From Desulfamplus magnetovallimortis (lineage in GTDB: Bacteria > Desulfobacterota > Desulfobacteria > Desulfobacterales > Desulfobacteraceae): a stretch of 37,785 nt of DNA. The stretch's first letter is position 1. Each line of letters begins with the position of its first letter. The notes beneath the pieces were generated by a model, which was not told the DNA's origin, made no database searches, and was given only the letters and a program-made list of their open reading frames with translations. Of the stretch, positions 2,421 through 37,785 are shown one piece after another. The DNA lies in NCBI RefSeq assembly GCF_900170035.1, contig NZ_LT828540.1, positions 871,428-909,212 on the forward strand. The letters are read 5' to 3'. The translations under genes and the position numbers were made by a program.

Positions 2421-5093
2421 TCAGGAGAAAACAGACTCAATTGCCTCAACAAGTTTTTGTTGCATAAAGGGTTTTACGAGAAAGACATTGATGTTATTTT
2501 TCTCAATACACTCATCATCTTCTACAGTAAAGCCGGAACATAATATAACCGGAATTTCCGGCTTGATTTTCCTTACCCCTGAAGCAAGTTCAAGGCCGGT
2601 CATGCCGGGCATGGTGAGATCAGTTATAATAAGATCAAAGTCATCTGGATTTTTTTCAAAAAGAGCCATTACCTTAAGTGGATCTGATTCTCCGGTAACA
2701 TGGTAGCCCAAAGGCTGAAGTAGCAGTACCCCAATCTCGACAAGATCAGGTTCGTCATCCACAAAAATGATCCTGATTTTAGAGTTATTCTCAGCCCGAA
2801 CAACTGAATCCTTTTCAACCGGAACAATTAAACTCTTTTCAACCGAATCAACTGAACCCTTTTCCACAGAAACAACTGAATTCTTTTCCACAGAAACAAC
2901 TGAACTCTTTTCCACAGAAACAACCGAACTCTTTTCCACAGAAACAACTGAACTCTTTTCCACAGAAACAACTGAGTCCTTTTCAATAGGAACAATTGAA
3001 TTCTTTTTAACCGAATCAACAAGACTCTTTTTAGAAGAAAAAGCTGTTTTGTCATCCGCCGGAGCAAATGAACTCTCTTCTGCTGGAACAAAGGGAAGAA
3101 ATTGTTTTAGTATGGAAATAAAATCAGCCATTCTGACGGGTTTGGGAAGGTATGCATCGCAAAGATTTCGTATGATTTTTTCATCTTCCTTCATGGCCGA
3201 TGCAGTCACTGCAATGACAGGGATCTTTCCAAGTTCAGGATTATTTTTCAATATTTCCGATGCCTTGTAGCCATCCATAACCGGCATTTTCATATCCATT
3301 AGAATAAGATCCGTATGAAACTGTTGGCACATCTCAACTGCCTGCTGTCCATTTTCAGCCTCCAGCAGGACAAGGTTGGAATAATCCTTGAGAAAACCCT
3401 TTAAAAGCTCCCTGTTATAGTCGATATCATCTACAATTAAAATAGTGGCAGGTTCAAAATTGACATTTTTCATATCAATTACAGAGCCAGGATTCAAATC
3501 ATCATCATTGGGATTTATCAAGGGAGATTCCACATCTTTGAGAAAAACTGTAAAAGTGCTTCCCTCCCCCACATTGCTTTTAACAGAAATACTACCGTTC
3601 ATAAGCTCCACAAGCCGCCTTGTAATAGCAAGCCCTAAACCTGTGCCACCATGTTCAAAAGTCTTTTGTCCCTTTAACTGTGTAAAAGTTTCAAAAACAG
3701 AGTCAATTTCTTCAGGGGGTATCCCCATACCGCTGTCTTCAACAGAAAAAGAGATGTCAAAAGCAGAGTGGAAGGCACCCTGAAGTTTTTCAAGGTGTTT
3801 ATGACACTCCATGGAGAGCAGAATATAGCCTTGAGATGTAAATTTCAGGGCATTACCAACAAGGTTTATAATTATCTGGCGAATCCTGACTCCGTCAAGC
3901 AGCAGTGCTTCAGGCACTTCTGGAGAAATATCTGTAATAAATTCAATTCCTTTTTTGTTAATCTTCTCTGCAAAAAGGATTTCAATTTCATTGAACATTT
4001 TTTCAGGAATAAGTGCTGAATATTCCAGGCTCAATTTTCCTGCCTCTATTCTGGAGAGATCAAGAATATCATTGATAAGACTTAAAAGAACCTTACTGTT
4101 GGATTCAATGGCATTGAAATATTGAATTTTTTGATTATCAGTTTCAGATGCAGAAAGAATTTCTGTAAATCCCAGAATAGCATTCATGGGGGTTCTTATT
4201 TCGTGGGACATGTTGGCAAGAAAACTGCTTTTTAACTTGTTGGCAGCCTCTGCTGCATCCTTGGCATCCCTTAACTCAAGGGCCTGCTTTTCGAGCATAA
4301 TGGTTCGTTGTACAACTTTTTCTTCAAGATCATCTCTATTCCTTATCAGAGTTTCATTTGCCTTTTTGAGATTCTGTCGCATATAGTTAACAGCATCTGT
4401 AACCATAATAAGCTCATTGCGGATGCCCTTTTTAGGTGATAGTCTTGATCTTTTCACAGAAGGCAAAATTTTTTTTCTGTTTAAAACAAGAGGTTCATCA
4501 AGGTTGTTGACATGGAGATTTCGTACATAATCTGCCATTGTGTGCAGATGACGGGTAATAAGCTGCCATACAATAAAAAGGATAAATATGGATACTGAAA
4601 AAGTCTTGAATGCCTGGGTGACAAGAATAAGGACTATACGCTCGTTAAGCCTTGTATGAATATATCGTAAATCTCCGTAGATGGTTAAAATGCCAAGCTT
4701 TTTGGGGTCAAACTGTTTAAGGGGATCTTTAAACACGATGGGAAAATCAAAGGAGATGCGCATGGTTTCAGGTGGTTTATCACCAACCATAAAGGTTTTA
4801 TCAATTGTGATTGCCTCAAGACAAGCTATCTCAGGCAGTTGCAGAATACCGTTAAGTTGGGCATAAACATGATCCTGGTTCATATTCCAGATACTCAGTG
4901 AAAGGCTGCTTATATAGCTCTCCTTTACCTGAATAATTCTGGTTTCTATCAGTTTCAAGTCCTTGCGGTATTCAACCCACAACTGCACAACAGATGCAAG
5001 AAGTGTAAAAAATGAGCTGAAAAGAAGAATATAAAAAAGAAGTTGTCGTGCCAGGCTGGAATTATTATTTAATTTGCATGTTTTTTTTGGCAT
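2421..5093 (-). CDS. Membrane hybrid histidine kinase with two C-terminal receiver domains
   Basis: Sensor kinase of 890 aa. Two membrane segments (about residues 18-40 and 153-180) bracket a roughly 110-residue periplasmic sensor region. A coiled linker leads to a HisKA domain with SHEIRTP (His297), then HATPase_c with N-box (INLVGNALKFT), G1 (DSGMGIP) and G2 (GGTGLGLAI). The first receiver starts at ILIVDDIDYNRELL with Asp600 in LILMD; the second starts at IRIIFVDDEPDL with Asp825 in IITD. Between the receivers is a linker of ten octapeptides of the type SSVVSVEK (about 690-769). Such phosphorelay kinases usually pass phosphate to an Hpt protein or regulator, which is not seen here. The next gene on the same strand is a periplasmic binding protein, then another hybrid kinase, suggesting one signalling unit. 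The ligand is unknown. Confidence 0.88.
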   Translation of the reverse strand: MPKKTCKLNNNSSLARQLLFYILLFSSFFTLLASVVQLWVEYRKDLKLIETRIIQVKESYISSLSLSIWNMNQDHVYAQLNGILQLPEIACLEAITIDKTFMVGDKPPETMRISFDFPIVFKDPLKQFDPKKLGILTIYGDLRYIHTRLNERIVLILVTQAFKTFSVSIFILFIVWQLITRHLHTMADYVRNLHVNNLDEPLVLNRKKILPSVKRSRLSPKKGIRNELIMVTDAVNYMRQNLKKANETLIRNRDDLEEKVVQRTIMLEKQALELRDAKDAAEAANKLKSSFLANMSHEIRTPMNAILGFTEILSASETDNQKIQYFNAIESNSKVLLSLINDILDLSRIEAGKLSLEYSALIPEKMFNEIEILFAEKINKKGIEFITDISPEVPEALLLDGVRIRQIIINLVGNALKFTSQGYILLSMECHKHLEKLQGAFHSAFDISFSVEDSGMGIPPEEIDSVFETFTQLKGQKTFEHGGTGLGLAITRRLVELMNGSISVKSNVGEGSTFTVFLKDVESPLINPNDDDLNPGSVIDMKNVNFEPATILIVDDIDYNRELLKGFLKDYSNLVLLEAENGQQAVEMCQQFHTDLILMDMKMPVMDGYKASEILKNNPELGKIPVIAVTASAMKEDEKIIRNLCDAYLPKPVRMADFISILKQFLPFVPAEESSFAPADDKTAFSSKKSLVDSVKKNSIVPIEKDSVVSVEKSSVVSVEKSSVVSVEKSSVVSVEKNSVVSVEKGSVDSVEKSLIVPVEKDSVVRAENNSKIRIIFVDDEPDLVEIGVLLLQPLGYHVTGESDPLKVMALFEKNPDDFDLIITDLTMPGMTGLELASGVRKIKPEIPVILCSGFTVEDDECIEKNNINVFLVKPFMQQKLVEAIESVFS
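2787..3026 (-). repeat. In-frame 24-bp tandem repeat (10 octads) between two receiver domains
   Basis: Ten consecutive 8-residue units (consensus SSVVSVEK) are encoded by 24-bp repeats. The central four or five are nearly identical at the DNA level (tccacagaaacaactgaact and variants) and the outer ones are diverged, as expected for expansion from the middle. Confidence 0.9.
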
Positions 5094-5142: not shown

Positions 5143-6162
5143 TTAATTGAGACAGCATGCCGTCTTTCCATAGTATTTTTCATTCAGCATTCTGTAATGT
5201 TCTGTCTCCTTGAATGATTTCAGGGTATCTGAAAAGAGTTCAACAAACTCGGGGTTGACTGTTTGTTTACTGAAAATAAGATACAGGTCACTCTCATGAA
5301 TCAATTTTGAAAGAATGGGTTCAATTTTATCTGTCAATCCCATTTTTTGCATCAGAAGCATACCATTTGCATAATCTGCAACTGCATAATCTATGCGATC
5401 CGCCATCAATTTCCTAAAATTAAGATCATCACTTTCAACTTCCTGATAATTTCCGTGACTTTTTAGAAAATTCCAGAATTTTTCAGGATATGCAAAGGAT
5501 CTTACAATGCCTACCTGACTTTGCGCAAGGTCTTCATATGTGTCAAAAGCAAGGGTATTTCGATTCTTTTTTTTAATAAACAGGAAATATTTCAACTTTG
5601 TTATCGGGGTCTCCGGAAAAAAGCAGTGTTCAGCTCTCTCGTCAGAGTAGAGTGCGCAAAAAAGGGCGTCGCTGTCTCCCTTAAAGACAAGATCCACAGC
5701 TCTTGCCCAAGGATATTGTGTTATTTTGATCTGAACCCCCATCTTCTGAAACACCTGACGTACAACTTCAGTACACATTCCAGGCTCATTTTCATTAAAA
5801 ATATCTTCATGGGGAGGCCATCTGTCAGTTGCTATTCTGAAAACTCTGGCCATTTTATCAGATAAATTACTATTAAAAAGGACTCTTTCCTGGGAACTGA
5901 TTTCTGAAAAAGATATTATTGTAAAGAGAAAAATCCCTGAAACAATTTTCAGGATCAAGATAAAAAATTTTACCGTGGAAATAGCGCATCTTTCATTTGC
6001 CAGTTTAGATTTTCCTGAACACAATGCCGGTTTTTCTGGTGGCCTGTTCCGGAAAGTGTAAAGAACTTTCTGCATGGTATGAAGGATGCCGGAAATAGAT
6101 ATATTGCTTCCATGTTCGGGGGTAGCGGAAAATCCGTTATGTCCGTTTACCGTTTTAATCAT
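5143..6162 (-). CDS. Periplasmic solute-binding protein, family 3 (amino-acid/sensor type)
   Basis: The mature region (from about residue 103) resembles the SBP_bac_3 fold: FRIATDRWPPHEDIF at the start, PGMCTEVVRQVFQKMGV, the YPWARAVDLV segment, then RSFAYPE and DDLNFRKLMADRIDYAVADY in lobe two. A hydrophobic stretch (about 66-85, FFILILKIVSGIFLFTIISF) looks like a signal peptide h-region. The ~63 residues before it are encoded entirely by repeat DNA: a family B unit interrupted by a 106-bp MITE with 8-bp duplications. The true start is therefore doubtful. ATG 6162 is open, while a TTG just after the repeat (about 5955) would give a normal signal peptide but lacks a clear ribosome binding site. 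The gene lies 36 nt after the hybrid kinase at 6199-8316 and 49 nt before the one at 2421, so it may be a sensory binding protein rather than part of a transporter; no ABC permease is present. Confidence 0.75.
   Translation of the reverse strand: MIKTVNGHNGFSATPEHGSNISISGILHTMQKVLYTFRNRPPEKPALCSGKSKLANERCAISTVKFFILILKIVSGIFLFTIISFSEISSQERVLFNSNLSDKMARVFRIATDRWPPHEDIFNENEPGMCTEVVRQVFQKMGVQIKITQYPWARAVDLVFKGDSDALFCALYSDERAEHCFFPETPITKLKYFLFIKKKNRNTLAFDTYEDLAQSQVGIVRSFAYPEKFWNFLKSHGNYQEVESDDLNFRKLMADRIDYAVADYANGMLLMQKMGLTDKIEPILSKLIHESDLYLIFSKQTVNPEFVELFSDTLKSFKETEHYRMLNEKYYGKTACCLN
5968..6153 (-). repeat. Family B repeat unit, interrupted by a MITE
   Basis: If 5985-6098 is removed, the minus strand reads acggtaaacgg...gctacccccgaacatgga...tatctatttccacggtaaa. 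This aligns along its length with the family B unit at about 13176-13245 (acggtaaacggcc...gctacccccgaatatgga...tatctatttccacggtaaa). The unit supplies the first codons of the binding-protein frame. Confidence 0.8.
5985..6090. mobile_element. Family C MITE, 106 bp, with perfect 8-bp target duplication
   Basis: Flanked by GGAAATAG on both sides (5977-5984 and 6091-6098). Right end read inward: GGCATCCTTCATA; left end: CGCATCTTTCATTT. Subterminal tttacactttcc/ggaaagtgtaaa matches the other copies. It is the same length as the copy at 37379-37484. Insertion plus duplication is 114 bp, exactly 38 codons, with no stop in the binding-protein frame. No transposase is encoded, so it would need one in trans. 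Confidence 0.85.
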
Positions 6163-6198
6163 GATTGCCCCGCAAAAAGTTCAAGAAAGCCTTTTGGG

Positions 6199-12190: not shown

Positions 12191-12294
12191 GGCATGTTCC
12201 ATTTTTCGGTTTACACTTTCCTGAACCAAAGTCCCATTTTCTGGAAGCTCGCCCAAAAAGTGTAAAGGACTTTTAAGGGGATATGAAGGATTCT
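12191..12294. mobile_element. Family C MITE, 104 bp, with 8-bp target duplication
   Basis: Left end GGCATGTTCCATTTT; right end read inward AGAATCCTTCATAT. Internal tttacactttcc and gtgtaaagga match the other copies. Flanks GAAAATCA (12183-12190) and GAAAATTA (12295-12302) form an 8-bp duplication with one mismatch, suggesting an older insertion than the copies at 5985 and 37379. Confidence 0.7.
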
Positions 12295-12574
12295 GAAAAT
12301 TACAGGTTCAATAAAAACAATAGGTTCTCTTTCAATGATATACTGATATTAAAAAAATTCCTCAATATTGTTTTTGCCATTGCCGAATTTTTGGGAAACA
12401 GGTTGAAATATGAGCAAAAATACGATATAGATGTAAATATTTGATCAAACATTTAGGTACAATCAACATCTTCACTGCCTACTGCTTTGTCAAAGCAAAA
12501 AAAATGATGAACTTGTAAAAAGCCGATAACGAAGCATGAAATCCTCAAGGACCTTAAAATGTAGGGATTTTATT

Positions 12575-12655
12575 TTATATGAAAGTCTCAGTAAGTGGCT
12601 GTTTTAAAACAACTTTCATCTCTTCAATTGTGGCGGGAATCTGCCATGTACGTAA
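12575..12655 (+). repeat. Family A two-hairpin repeat, single unit
   Basis: tatatgaaagtctcagtaag ... aactttcatctcttcaattg, then tggcgggaatctgccatgta. The first stem is GAAAGT/ACTTTC; the second GGCGG/CTGCC with a GAAT loop. Confidence 0.8.
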
Positions 12656-12753
12656 CAAAAAAAGTAAAAGTCTGTAAATAAAGCATCCACTGAACTTTTT
12701 TGCTGATCTGTCTTGATTGCCTCTTGAGAATATACAGCCCAAAAGGAATACAA

Positions 12754-12939: not shown

Positions 12940-13343
12940 ATCAAATCCCCCCATGATTGCCAAGTGATCACAACGAAGTTTGAAAGCCTTTTAGAAAAAA
13001 AGCTGTTACTGAGACTTTCCAACAGAAAAAAATAGGATCATTTTTACGGTAAAACCTCATGGCCAAATAAGATTTCGGCCACCCCCGATCATGAAAACAG
13101 AATGTGTTTTCACGGTAAACGGGCATGATTGATTACGTATCAATCACCCCCAAATATAAAAATGATAGTCATTTTCACGGTAAACGGCCATGGCTGTCAT
13201 CAAGCTACCCCCGAATATGGAAATTTGTATCTATTTCCACGGTAAACAGGCATGATTGATTACGTATCAATGACCCCCAAATATAAAAATGATAGTCATT
13301 TTCACGGTAAAAAGAGCAGTTCTGTAGATTCAGGAAAAATGTA
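12940..13343. other. Intergenic region filled by a family B array
   Basis: Apart from about 100 nt after the small Cys-rich gene, the whole gap is the tandem repeat listed at 13040-13311. No further gene, promoter or terminator is convincing. Confidence 0.6.
13040..13311 (+). repeat. Family B tandem hairpin repeat (4 units of 62-66 bp)
   Basis: Boundary box acggtaaa recurs at about 13046, 13112, 13177, 13239 and 13304. Each unit contains a first hairpin (for example ATTGAT-tacgt-ATCAAT), a conserved ACCCCC, and a second hairpin before the next box. The second stems differ but remain paired: GAAAACA/TGTTTTC, AAAATGA/TCATTTT, TGGAAAT/ATTTCCA, AAAATGA/TCATTTT. Other copies: 5968-6153, 21720, 24676 and 28542. 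Confidence 0.85.
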
Positions 13344-14299: not shown

Positions 14300-14425
14300 T
14301 TTATATGAAAGTCTCGGTAACAGCCTGTTTTTAAAACGACTTTCATCTCTTCGATTGTGGCGGTAATCCGCCATGTACGTTATTTGATGAAAACTTTCAT
14401 GCTTGGTTGTAACAGATGATTCCTC
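14300..14425 (+). repeat. Family A two-hairpin repeat, one and a half units
   Basis: The first unit has GAAAGTC/GACTTTC and GGCGG-taat-CCGCC hairpins. A second degraded unit (gatgaaaactttcatgcttg, then gttgtaacagatgattcc) runs up to the 3' end of lpdA. It lies between converging genes, so it may serve as a bidirectional transcript end. Confidence 0.75.
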
Positions 14426-32423: not shown

Positions 32424-32588
32424 TTTATAAGAAAGTCCCCGTGGTTAAAGGTTTTTCAGGGCTTTCATGCTTCGTTGTGGTAGATGAATCTGCCATGGCC
32501 GTTATATGAAAGTCTCGGTAACATCCTGTTTTTAAAATGACTTTCATCTCTTCGATTGTGGCGGTCATCAGCCATGTACGTTATTTAA
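32424..32588 (+). repeat. Family A two-hairpin repeat, two units
   Basis: Unit 1: GAAAGTCCCC ... aGGGcTTTC, then GGTAGA-tgaa-TCTGCC. Unit 2: GAAAGTCtc ... GACTTTC-type arms (tgactttcatctcttcgatt), then GGCGGT-cat-(C)aGCC. The two units show different but paired stems. Confidence 0.8.
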
Positions 32589-37313: not shown

Positions 37314-37520
37314 GTTAAATTGATAATTGAAAAGCCTAACTATCTGTTATCTGGATTAATTTTTTTGACCAAAAAATAGGCATCCTTCATTTGAACCCAA
37401 AAATACTTTACACTTTTTTGCGAGAGATTCCCGCCACACAGACTTTTCTCTCCGGAAAGTGTAAACTGGGAAATGAAGCATGCCAAAAAATAAAATATTT
37501 TTCAAGAAAGCTATAGTTTA
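37314..37520 (+). repeat. Family F repeat, interrupted copy
   Basis: Left block ttaaattgataattgaaaag, ctaactatctgttatc, ttaatttttttgacc; right block aaaaaataaaatatttttca, agaaagctatagtttact. The two blocks align with the continuous copy at 23603-23700 once 37379-37492 is removed. Confidence 0.8.
37379..37484. mobile_element. Family C MITE, 106 bp, with 8-bp target duplication
   Basis: Ends GGCATCCTTCATTT and, inverted, GGCATGCTTCATTT (13 of 14 identical). AAAAAATA flanks it on both sides (37371-37378 and 37485-37492). Internal ctttacactttt and ggaaagtgtaaa arms match the copies at 5985 and 12191. The length equals the 5985-6090 copy exactly. Confidence 0.88.
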
Positions 37521-37576: not shown

Positions 37577-37785
37577 AAGAATGAAAGTCCTTAAAATCCT
37601 TAAAAGGCGAGGACTTTCATATAACGTACATGGCGGATAGCCGCCACAATCGAAGAGATGAAAGTCGTTTTAAAAACAGCCACTTACTGAGACTTTCATA
37701 TAAACGTACATGGCTGATGACCGCCACAATCGAAGAGATGAAAGTTGTTTTAAAAACAGCCTGTTACCGAGACTTTCATATAAAA
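37577..37785 (-). repeat. Family A two-hairpin repeat array, reverse orientation, continuing past the window
   Basis: At least two full units and one partial unit on the minus strand: GAAAGTC/GACTTTC stems with differing loops, and GGCGG-atag-CCGCC and GGCtgatgaCCGCC-type second stems. It lies at the opposite edge and in the opposite orientation to the array at 1-237. Confidence 0.85.

Follow-up and report, generated by a model that had tools for sequence, protein, structure and literature searches.

Short palindromic or inverted-repeat elements fused in frame to bacterial genes are a known kind of insertion, as several reports describe. The Rickettsia palindromic elements (RPE), repeats of 105-146 bp, lie in frame in protein genes (PMC2229807), and a further account gives them as ~150 bp, fused in frame in genes and with nearly half of their number within open reading frames (ORFs) (PMC10969869). 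In Coxiella burnetii, QMITE1 and QMITE2 are miniature inverted-repeat transposable elements (MITEs) that are sometimes found in frame in ORFs (PMC5896051), while in Yersinia a YAPL/RU-2 MITE fused in frame to YPO1552 makes up part of the signal peptide of this putative exported protein (PMC2229807). Here we describe a gene for a binding protein in Desulfamplus magnetovallimortis that carries a MITE of one family, C, nested within a repeat of a second family, B. The gene lies in a stretch of 37,785 nucleotides analysed as a whole (the window), which is part of contig NZ_LT828540.1 (C1) in a genome of 6.68 Mb in 108 contigs. From comparison of the sequences we consider it fairly probable that the two repeats have lengthened the signal-peptide coding region in frame, and that translation runs from the ATG at position 6162 through 59 extra codons.

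Set beside RPE by description only, C is similarly a short palindromic repeat that can be inserted in frame in protein genes, but unlike RPE it has 8-bp target duplications. The likeness to YPO1552 is likewise one of description; there the MITE supplies part of the actual signal peptide, whereas at the present site it is the segment in front of a pre-existing hydrophobic core that is lengthened, by two unrelated repeats nested one in the other. Compared with QMITE1 and QMITE2, the insertion described here is N-terminal. The nesting of two families, the placing of insertions by orthologues and a position in the signal-peptide n-region were not met in these reports or, judged by title and opening of the abstract, among the matches listed by the literature searches, outside which most subscription journals lie.

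The C element at the site (Table 1) is 106 bp long and is bordered by an exact duplication of 8 bp, so that element and duplication together add 114 bp, or 38 codons, with zero stops in the frame of the binding protein. The initial annotation had recognised a MITE lying inside a B unit, 114 bp in total and open in this frame, and the coordinates, the exact duplication and a check of the frame bear out each of these points. It had also counted an extension of 38 codons; because the insertion of B (63 bp) is itself in frame, the extension amounts to 59. When C and one copy of the duplication are taken away, 67 bp are left, both bordering TAAA motifs included, and this is indeed a B unit, as had been proposed. 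The match to the B unit at 13181-13246 (given previously as about 13176-13245) is weaker than had been implied, with 55 of 71 alignment columns identical when gaps are counted.

Removal of all 177 bp (63 of B and 114 of C) leaves ATG ATT AAA ACG GTA AAA TTT TTT ATC TTG ATC CTG, which encodes MIKTVKFFILIL. The orthologues at loci L017, L018 and L091 are without the insert, and the proteins of L018 (G016) and L017 (G029) begin MAKTKFFIAIL and MKKAKMFVAIL. Start regions were aligned at the nucleotide level, from -16 to ~+45, and scored against 1000 shuffles that keep base composition only; the region lacking B and C, ATGATTAAAACGGTAAAATTTTTTATCTTGATCCTG, scores 16.0 against its L018 counterpart, ATGGCAAAAACAAAGTTTTTTATCGCAATCCTG (shuffle maximum 5.5), and 11.5 against L017 (shuffle maximum 6.0), with 0 of 1000 shuffles as high in either case. 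Because the empty-site start region aligns in this way with two insert-free orthologues, the native start is probably ATG 6162, which is probably the homologue of the orthologue start codon in two of the three orthologues aligned, the third being silent. We conclude from these alignments that the hydrophobic core lies beyond both insertions, B and C having entered the gene within its coding part, behind codon 4 or 5. It had previously been left undecided whether the protein had gained a repeat-derived extension or whether the open frame was fortuitous, with translation beginning further in, past position 5968. The comparison favours the coding outcome, since ATG 6162 lies upstream of both repeats and there are codons matching L018 before B; orthologues with a start beyond 5968 would have counted against it, and the comparison went the opposite way, one orthologue being silent.

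The initiation signals agree in rank with this assignment. Five in-frame candidate starts, within the first 360 bases, were compared by the predicted duplex with the anti-Shine-Dalgarno (anti-SD) sequence, and that ahead of ATG 6162 is the best of them (Table 1), followed by TTG 5958 at -3.1 kcal/mol and by three weaker candidates. Among the first 110 starts, the top Kyte-Doolittle 17-mer, at 2.66, is the hydrophobic core that the presumed signal peptide would use.

Copies of C were surveyed in 457,173 bases of the genome, taken from 132 overlapping sources that include the window (~423,000 distinct 31-mers) and mostly picked for carrying C, so that the density of C in them is not representative. 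This sequence holds 120 copies of 85-130 bp, and because 86 of them are exactly 106 bp the addition of 114 bp is a property of the family. Duplications of 8 bp with at most one mismatch flank 101 of the 120 copies, as against 0 of 120 control pairs; the MITE call had been tied to the existence of further copies with the same ends and duplications, and in view of their abundance it is not weakened. The terminal inverted repeats pair a mean of 10.74 of 12 end bases over the 101 copies. In the whole genome the exact C end GGCATCCTTCAT occurs 272 times, compared with once for the reversed control, and a looser pattern finds 146 whole elements. With short inverted-repeat ends, target-site duplications and a high copy number, C is by structure a MITE. 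The looser pattern is present in 10 of 84 genomes of the bacterial family, namely this one, 6 of 9 others of the genus and three further. A parent of the IS1595 type, the one transposase family searched for, was rejected for this genome because the PF12762 transposase domain is absent at E <= 0.001; among 17 exact C ends without a near partner, none is paired at a distance of 400-3000 bp with another end that has a corresponding duplication, within loci that mostly reach only ~1.5 kb past the end. An Rfam search gave 0 matches. The window contains two more C-family elements, at 37379-37484 (exact 8-bp duplication) and 12191-12294 (duplication with at most one mismatch). Elsewhere, L105, L110, L112, L116, L122 and L125 are longer relatives of 158-209 bp that share the ends and the exact 8-bp duplications and differ in their interiors, L123 and L146 each hold one C-family element nested within another, and at L066 and L135 a downstream ORF may take its start codon from the C end ATGAAGGATGCC.

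The position of C within B reflects a hotspot, because C lands repeatedly at the 3′ end of B. With C elements removed, the surveyed sequence contains 117 B 3′-end motifs, and in 12 of 101 C copies the duplication stops 5-7 nt inside such a motif when at most one mismatch is allowed (9 exactly; 14 if two mismatches are allowed). The number expected is ~0.08 on the assumption of uniform insertion, a figure uncorrected for overlapping loci and for the preference that C shows for T-rich targets in general, and on this comparison nesting by chance is ruled out.

B units measure 61-69 bp per repeat (38 examined) and are often in tandem; one array of four, joined by ACGGTAAA, stands at 13046-13311 of the window. 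A specific pattern for B finds 131 exact units and 0 in controls, and occurs in 4 of the 84 family genomes, all of this genus, while a looser one finds 161 against 1 control, with at least 2 of the 100 matches listed belonging to a different tandem repeat. In two C-family elements that themselves contain a B unit, L010 (unit at minus 2439) and L138 (~1501-1720), TAAA flanks the unit on both sides, from which it appears, in these two cases only, that B targets or duplicates TAAA. The 38 units lack terminal inverted repeats and pair a mean of 4.34 (maximum 6) of 12 end bases, compared with 3.08 in shuffles and the far higher value of C; because inverted ends are absent, B is called a TAAA-targeting repeat and not a MITE. 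Because the nesting is reciprocal, C in B and B in C, natural empty sites are available for each family.

Both insertions retain their border repeats and a stop-free frame, and they would have come about in two steps. A B unit would first have inserted at a TAAA behind codon 4 or 5, lengthening the gene by 63 bp and leaving TAAA at either side, and the 106-bp C would subsequently have entered the 3′ end of B, its preferred target, where with its 8-bp duplication it would have contributed a further 114 bp. Since 63 and 114 are each divisible by three and neither insert brings a stop into the frame, the ribosome could keep the original ATG 6162 and would read 59 added codons before it reached the old hydrophobic core. 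The product would then have a very long n-region and would be exported and cleaved as before, and if the signal peptide is still cleaved, the mature binding protein would presumably be unchanged.

Other copies of C also lie in genes. Frames were counted without the 19 of 120 copies that have duplications with more than one mismatch. Among 606 copy-frames, 156 are stop-free (25.7%, compared with 15.2% in shuffles) and 131 are both stop-free and of a frame-keeping length; the corresponding count for B is 24 of 228 copy-frames in 38 units. In an empty-site ORF scan by codon score, 17 of 101 sites have an ORF whose coding score exceeds 10; of these, 8 were judged, by reading start codons and flanks, to lie within coding sequence, and the other 9 to be 5′ leader or unclear, with L098 the most doubtful. 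L060 was counted as coding despite an uncertain native start. Four of the eight are in frame and open: the present site (L001), L062 and L060, which are N-terminal, and L078, which is near a C-terminus. The remaining four have a stop inside the element, mid-gene in L003, L130 and L088 and a few codons before the gene end in L133. In this respect, too, C departs from RPE, with only 8 of 101 copies judged coding and half of those stopped. Selection across the family for stop-free frames, which had been suggested from other genomes, is unsupported; the excess of open frames fails to show it because related copies share their openness, and coding copies are nonetheless stopped inside the element. 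The genes cut by L003, L130 and L088 are, by reading only, AAA-ATPase-like, type I restriction HsdR-like and DUF86-like.

Two of these copies run parallel to the present case. In L062, C follows codons for MKKYFCSFL and is succeeded by a hydrophobic stretch; the upstream ATG has a strong predicted SD duplex (-9.8 and -10.1 kcal/mol for two adjoining candidates), and L154-L157, from the same genus, have comparable N-termini without C, three of which read VSKYLCCVII. In L060, C is followed by a B unit and then by KIIIFSIFFLFHCSAAGA, a hydrophobic stretch, and the native start may be an ATG with an SD value of -9.5 or a TTG within the C duplication (-3.3). All three N-terminal copies are thus in frame (p ~0.010, post hoc).

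Translation through the repeats has to be weighed against a fortuitous open frame, in which the gene would now start at TTG 5958 (MILKIVSGIFLF...) with a poorly charged but usable signal peptide, B and C being relegated to a 5′ leader. This TTG is in frame directly ahead of the hydrophobic core, its SD duplex, although weaker than that at 6162, is within the range of the starts of three neighbouring genes (-2.1, -3.8 and -7.4), and a start there would suit a repeat peptide that bears no visible constraint. However, the codons in common with L018 (TTT TTT ATC) lie upstream of the TTG, and the surrounding region scores -8.0 against L018, -7.5 against L017 and -9.5 against the third orthologue, L091, values that 614, 414 and 910 of the 1000 shuffles of this region equal or exceed. 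Nor would such a start explain why both insertions have kept the frame, and we regard it as unlikely. It seems to us very unlikely that the gene is crippled, an early pseudogene that yields little or no binding protein because its expression or export is blocked by the weak SD, by the hairpin of C or by the long n-region. In favour of this reading, RNA of the C strand can form a fold of -27.1 kcal/mol (z -2.5), and stops are introduced into genes by the three mid-gene copies L003, L130 and L088; yet here the remainder of the ORF is uninterrupted and can be aligned over its whole length with the three orthologues at 56-60% identity, despite time enough for C to have acquired 5 private substitutions, counted against a consensus of the 13 copies nearest to it.

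Several points count against translation from ATG 6162, including the restriction of the shuffles to base composition. L091 (G107), which over the full-length protein is the nearest orthologue (64%), scores -0.5 at the start region, with 140 of 1000 shuffles as high. The SD duplex at 6162 is weaker than those of L017, L018 and L091 (-8.2 to -10.2 kcal/mol), and in a fourth orthologue outside the start alignment, L180, the likely start is preceded by an SD that is weak too, at -1.9 kcal/mol. The region of a further candidate, ATG 5853, scores 5.0 against L018 (4 of 1000 of its own shuffles as high), but only -5.0 against both L017 and L091; a start there has an SD value of +0.6 and loses the hydrophobic core. 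The joint chance that B and C are both in frame and open, 0.023 from the family statistics, is a guide only and partly post hoc, because the site was chosen for its open frame, and the in-frame count among all coding copies, 4 of 8, is not significant (p ~0.07, post hoc). Finally, 4 of the 5 private substitutions in C are, by reading, nonsynonymous, so that the repeat peptide has no sign of constraint and we reject conservation of the C frame as a peptide at this site. The repeat-derived extension fits a tolerated linker rather than a selected peptide.

Table 1. Positions, in window coordinates, of the binding-protein gene, its two insertions and neighbouring features
Feature	Position	Strand	Remarks
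Hybrid histidine kinase with CHASE5 sensor domain	2421..5093	-	Downstream of the binding-protein gene
Binding-protein ORF	5143-6162	-	339 codons; gene carrying both insertions (copy L001)
SBP_bac_3 domain of the binding protein	5164..5835	-	Pfam PF00497, E 1.4e-10, residues 110-333
Hydrophobic core of presumed signal peptide, FILILKIVSGIFLFTII	5914..5964	-	Residues 67-83
Alternative start TTG	5956..5958	-	Rival start; shuffles do as well in alignment with the starts of three orthologues
B unit, TAAA to TAAA, split by C	5969..6149	-	B adds 63 bp
Target-site duplication copy 1, GGAAATAG	5977..5984	.	Exact 8 bp
C element, 106-bp MITE with inverted ends	5985..6090	-	Plus-strand ends CGCATCTTTCAT / ATGAAGGATGCC
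Target-site duplication copy 2, GGAAATAG	6091..6098	.	0/8 mismatches to copy 1
Probable native first bases, ATG ATT AAA ACG G	6150..6162	-	Empty-site alignment with L018 and L017
Weak Shine-Dalgarno-like GGGG ahead of ATG 6162	6168..6171	-	Predicted anti-SD duplex -5.0 kcal/mol, best of five

A CHASE5 histidine kinase also follows the binding protein in the orthologue loci L017, L018 and L091. Within the kinase ORF of the window, positions 2751-3091 hold a tandem repeat with a 24-bp period in 10 overlapping copies. A promoter and terminator scan returned 2 and 1 sites, against shuffle means of 1.1 and 0.5. A third dispersed repeat of ~80-85 bp (TTATATGAAAGTCTCGG...) occurs in both orientations, and once as a tandem pair, at 73-157, 12574-12658, 14301-14385, 32502-32586 and 37623-37782 of the window.

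For annotation, the start of the binding-protein gene is best placed at 6162, or tested there, and not trimmed to a start codon past the repeats. Taken together, the orthologues, the reconstructed order of insertion and the two parallel cases make the translation of repeats in signal peptides testable by ordinary proteomics. A wider proposal, which we offer tentatively and consider somewhat unlikely, is that C is a frame-neutral repeat (usually 114 bp with its duplication, and with four frames open in about one third of copies), able for this reason to traverse signal-peptide codons in genes of exported proteins, and that this genome has a set of repeat-built extended signal peptides. If this were true, the set would include one signal peptide built from two nested families, and mobile repeats would have, in signal-peptide n-regions, a tolerated point of entry into the proteins of bacteria.
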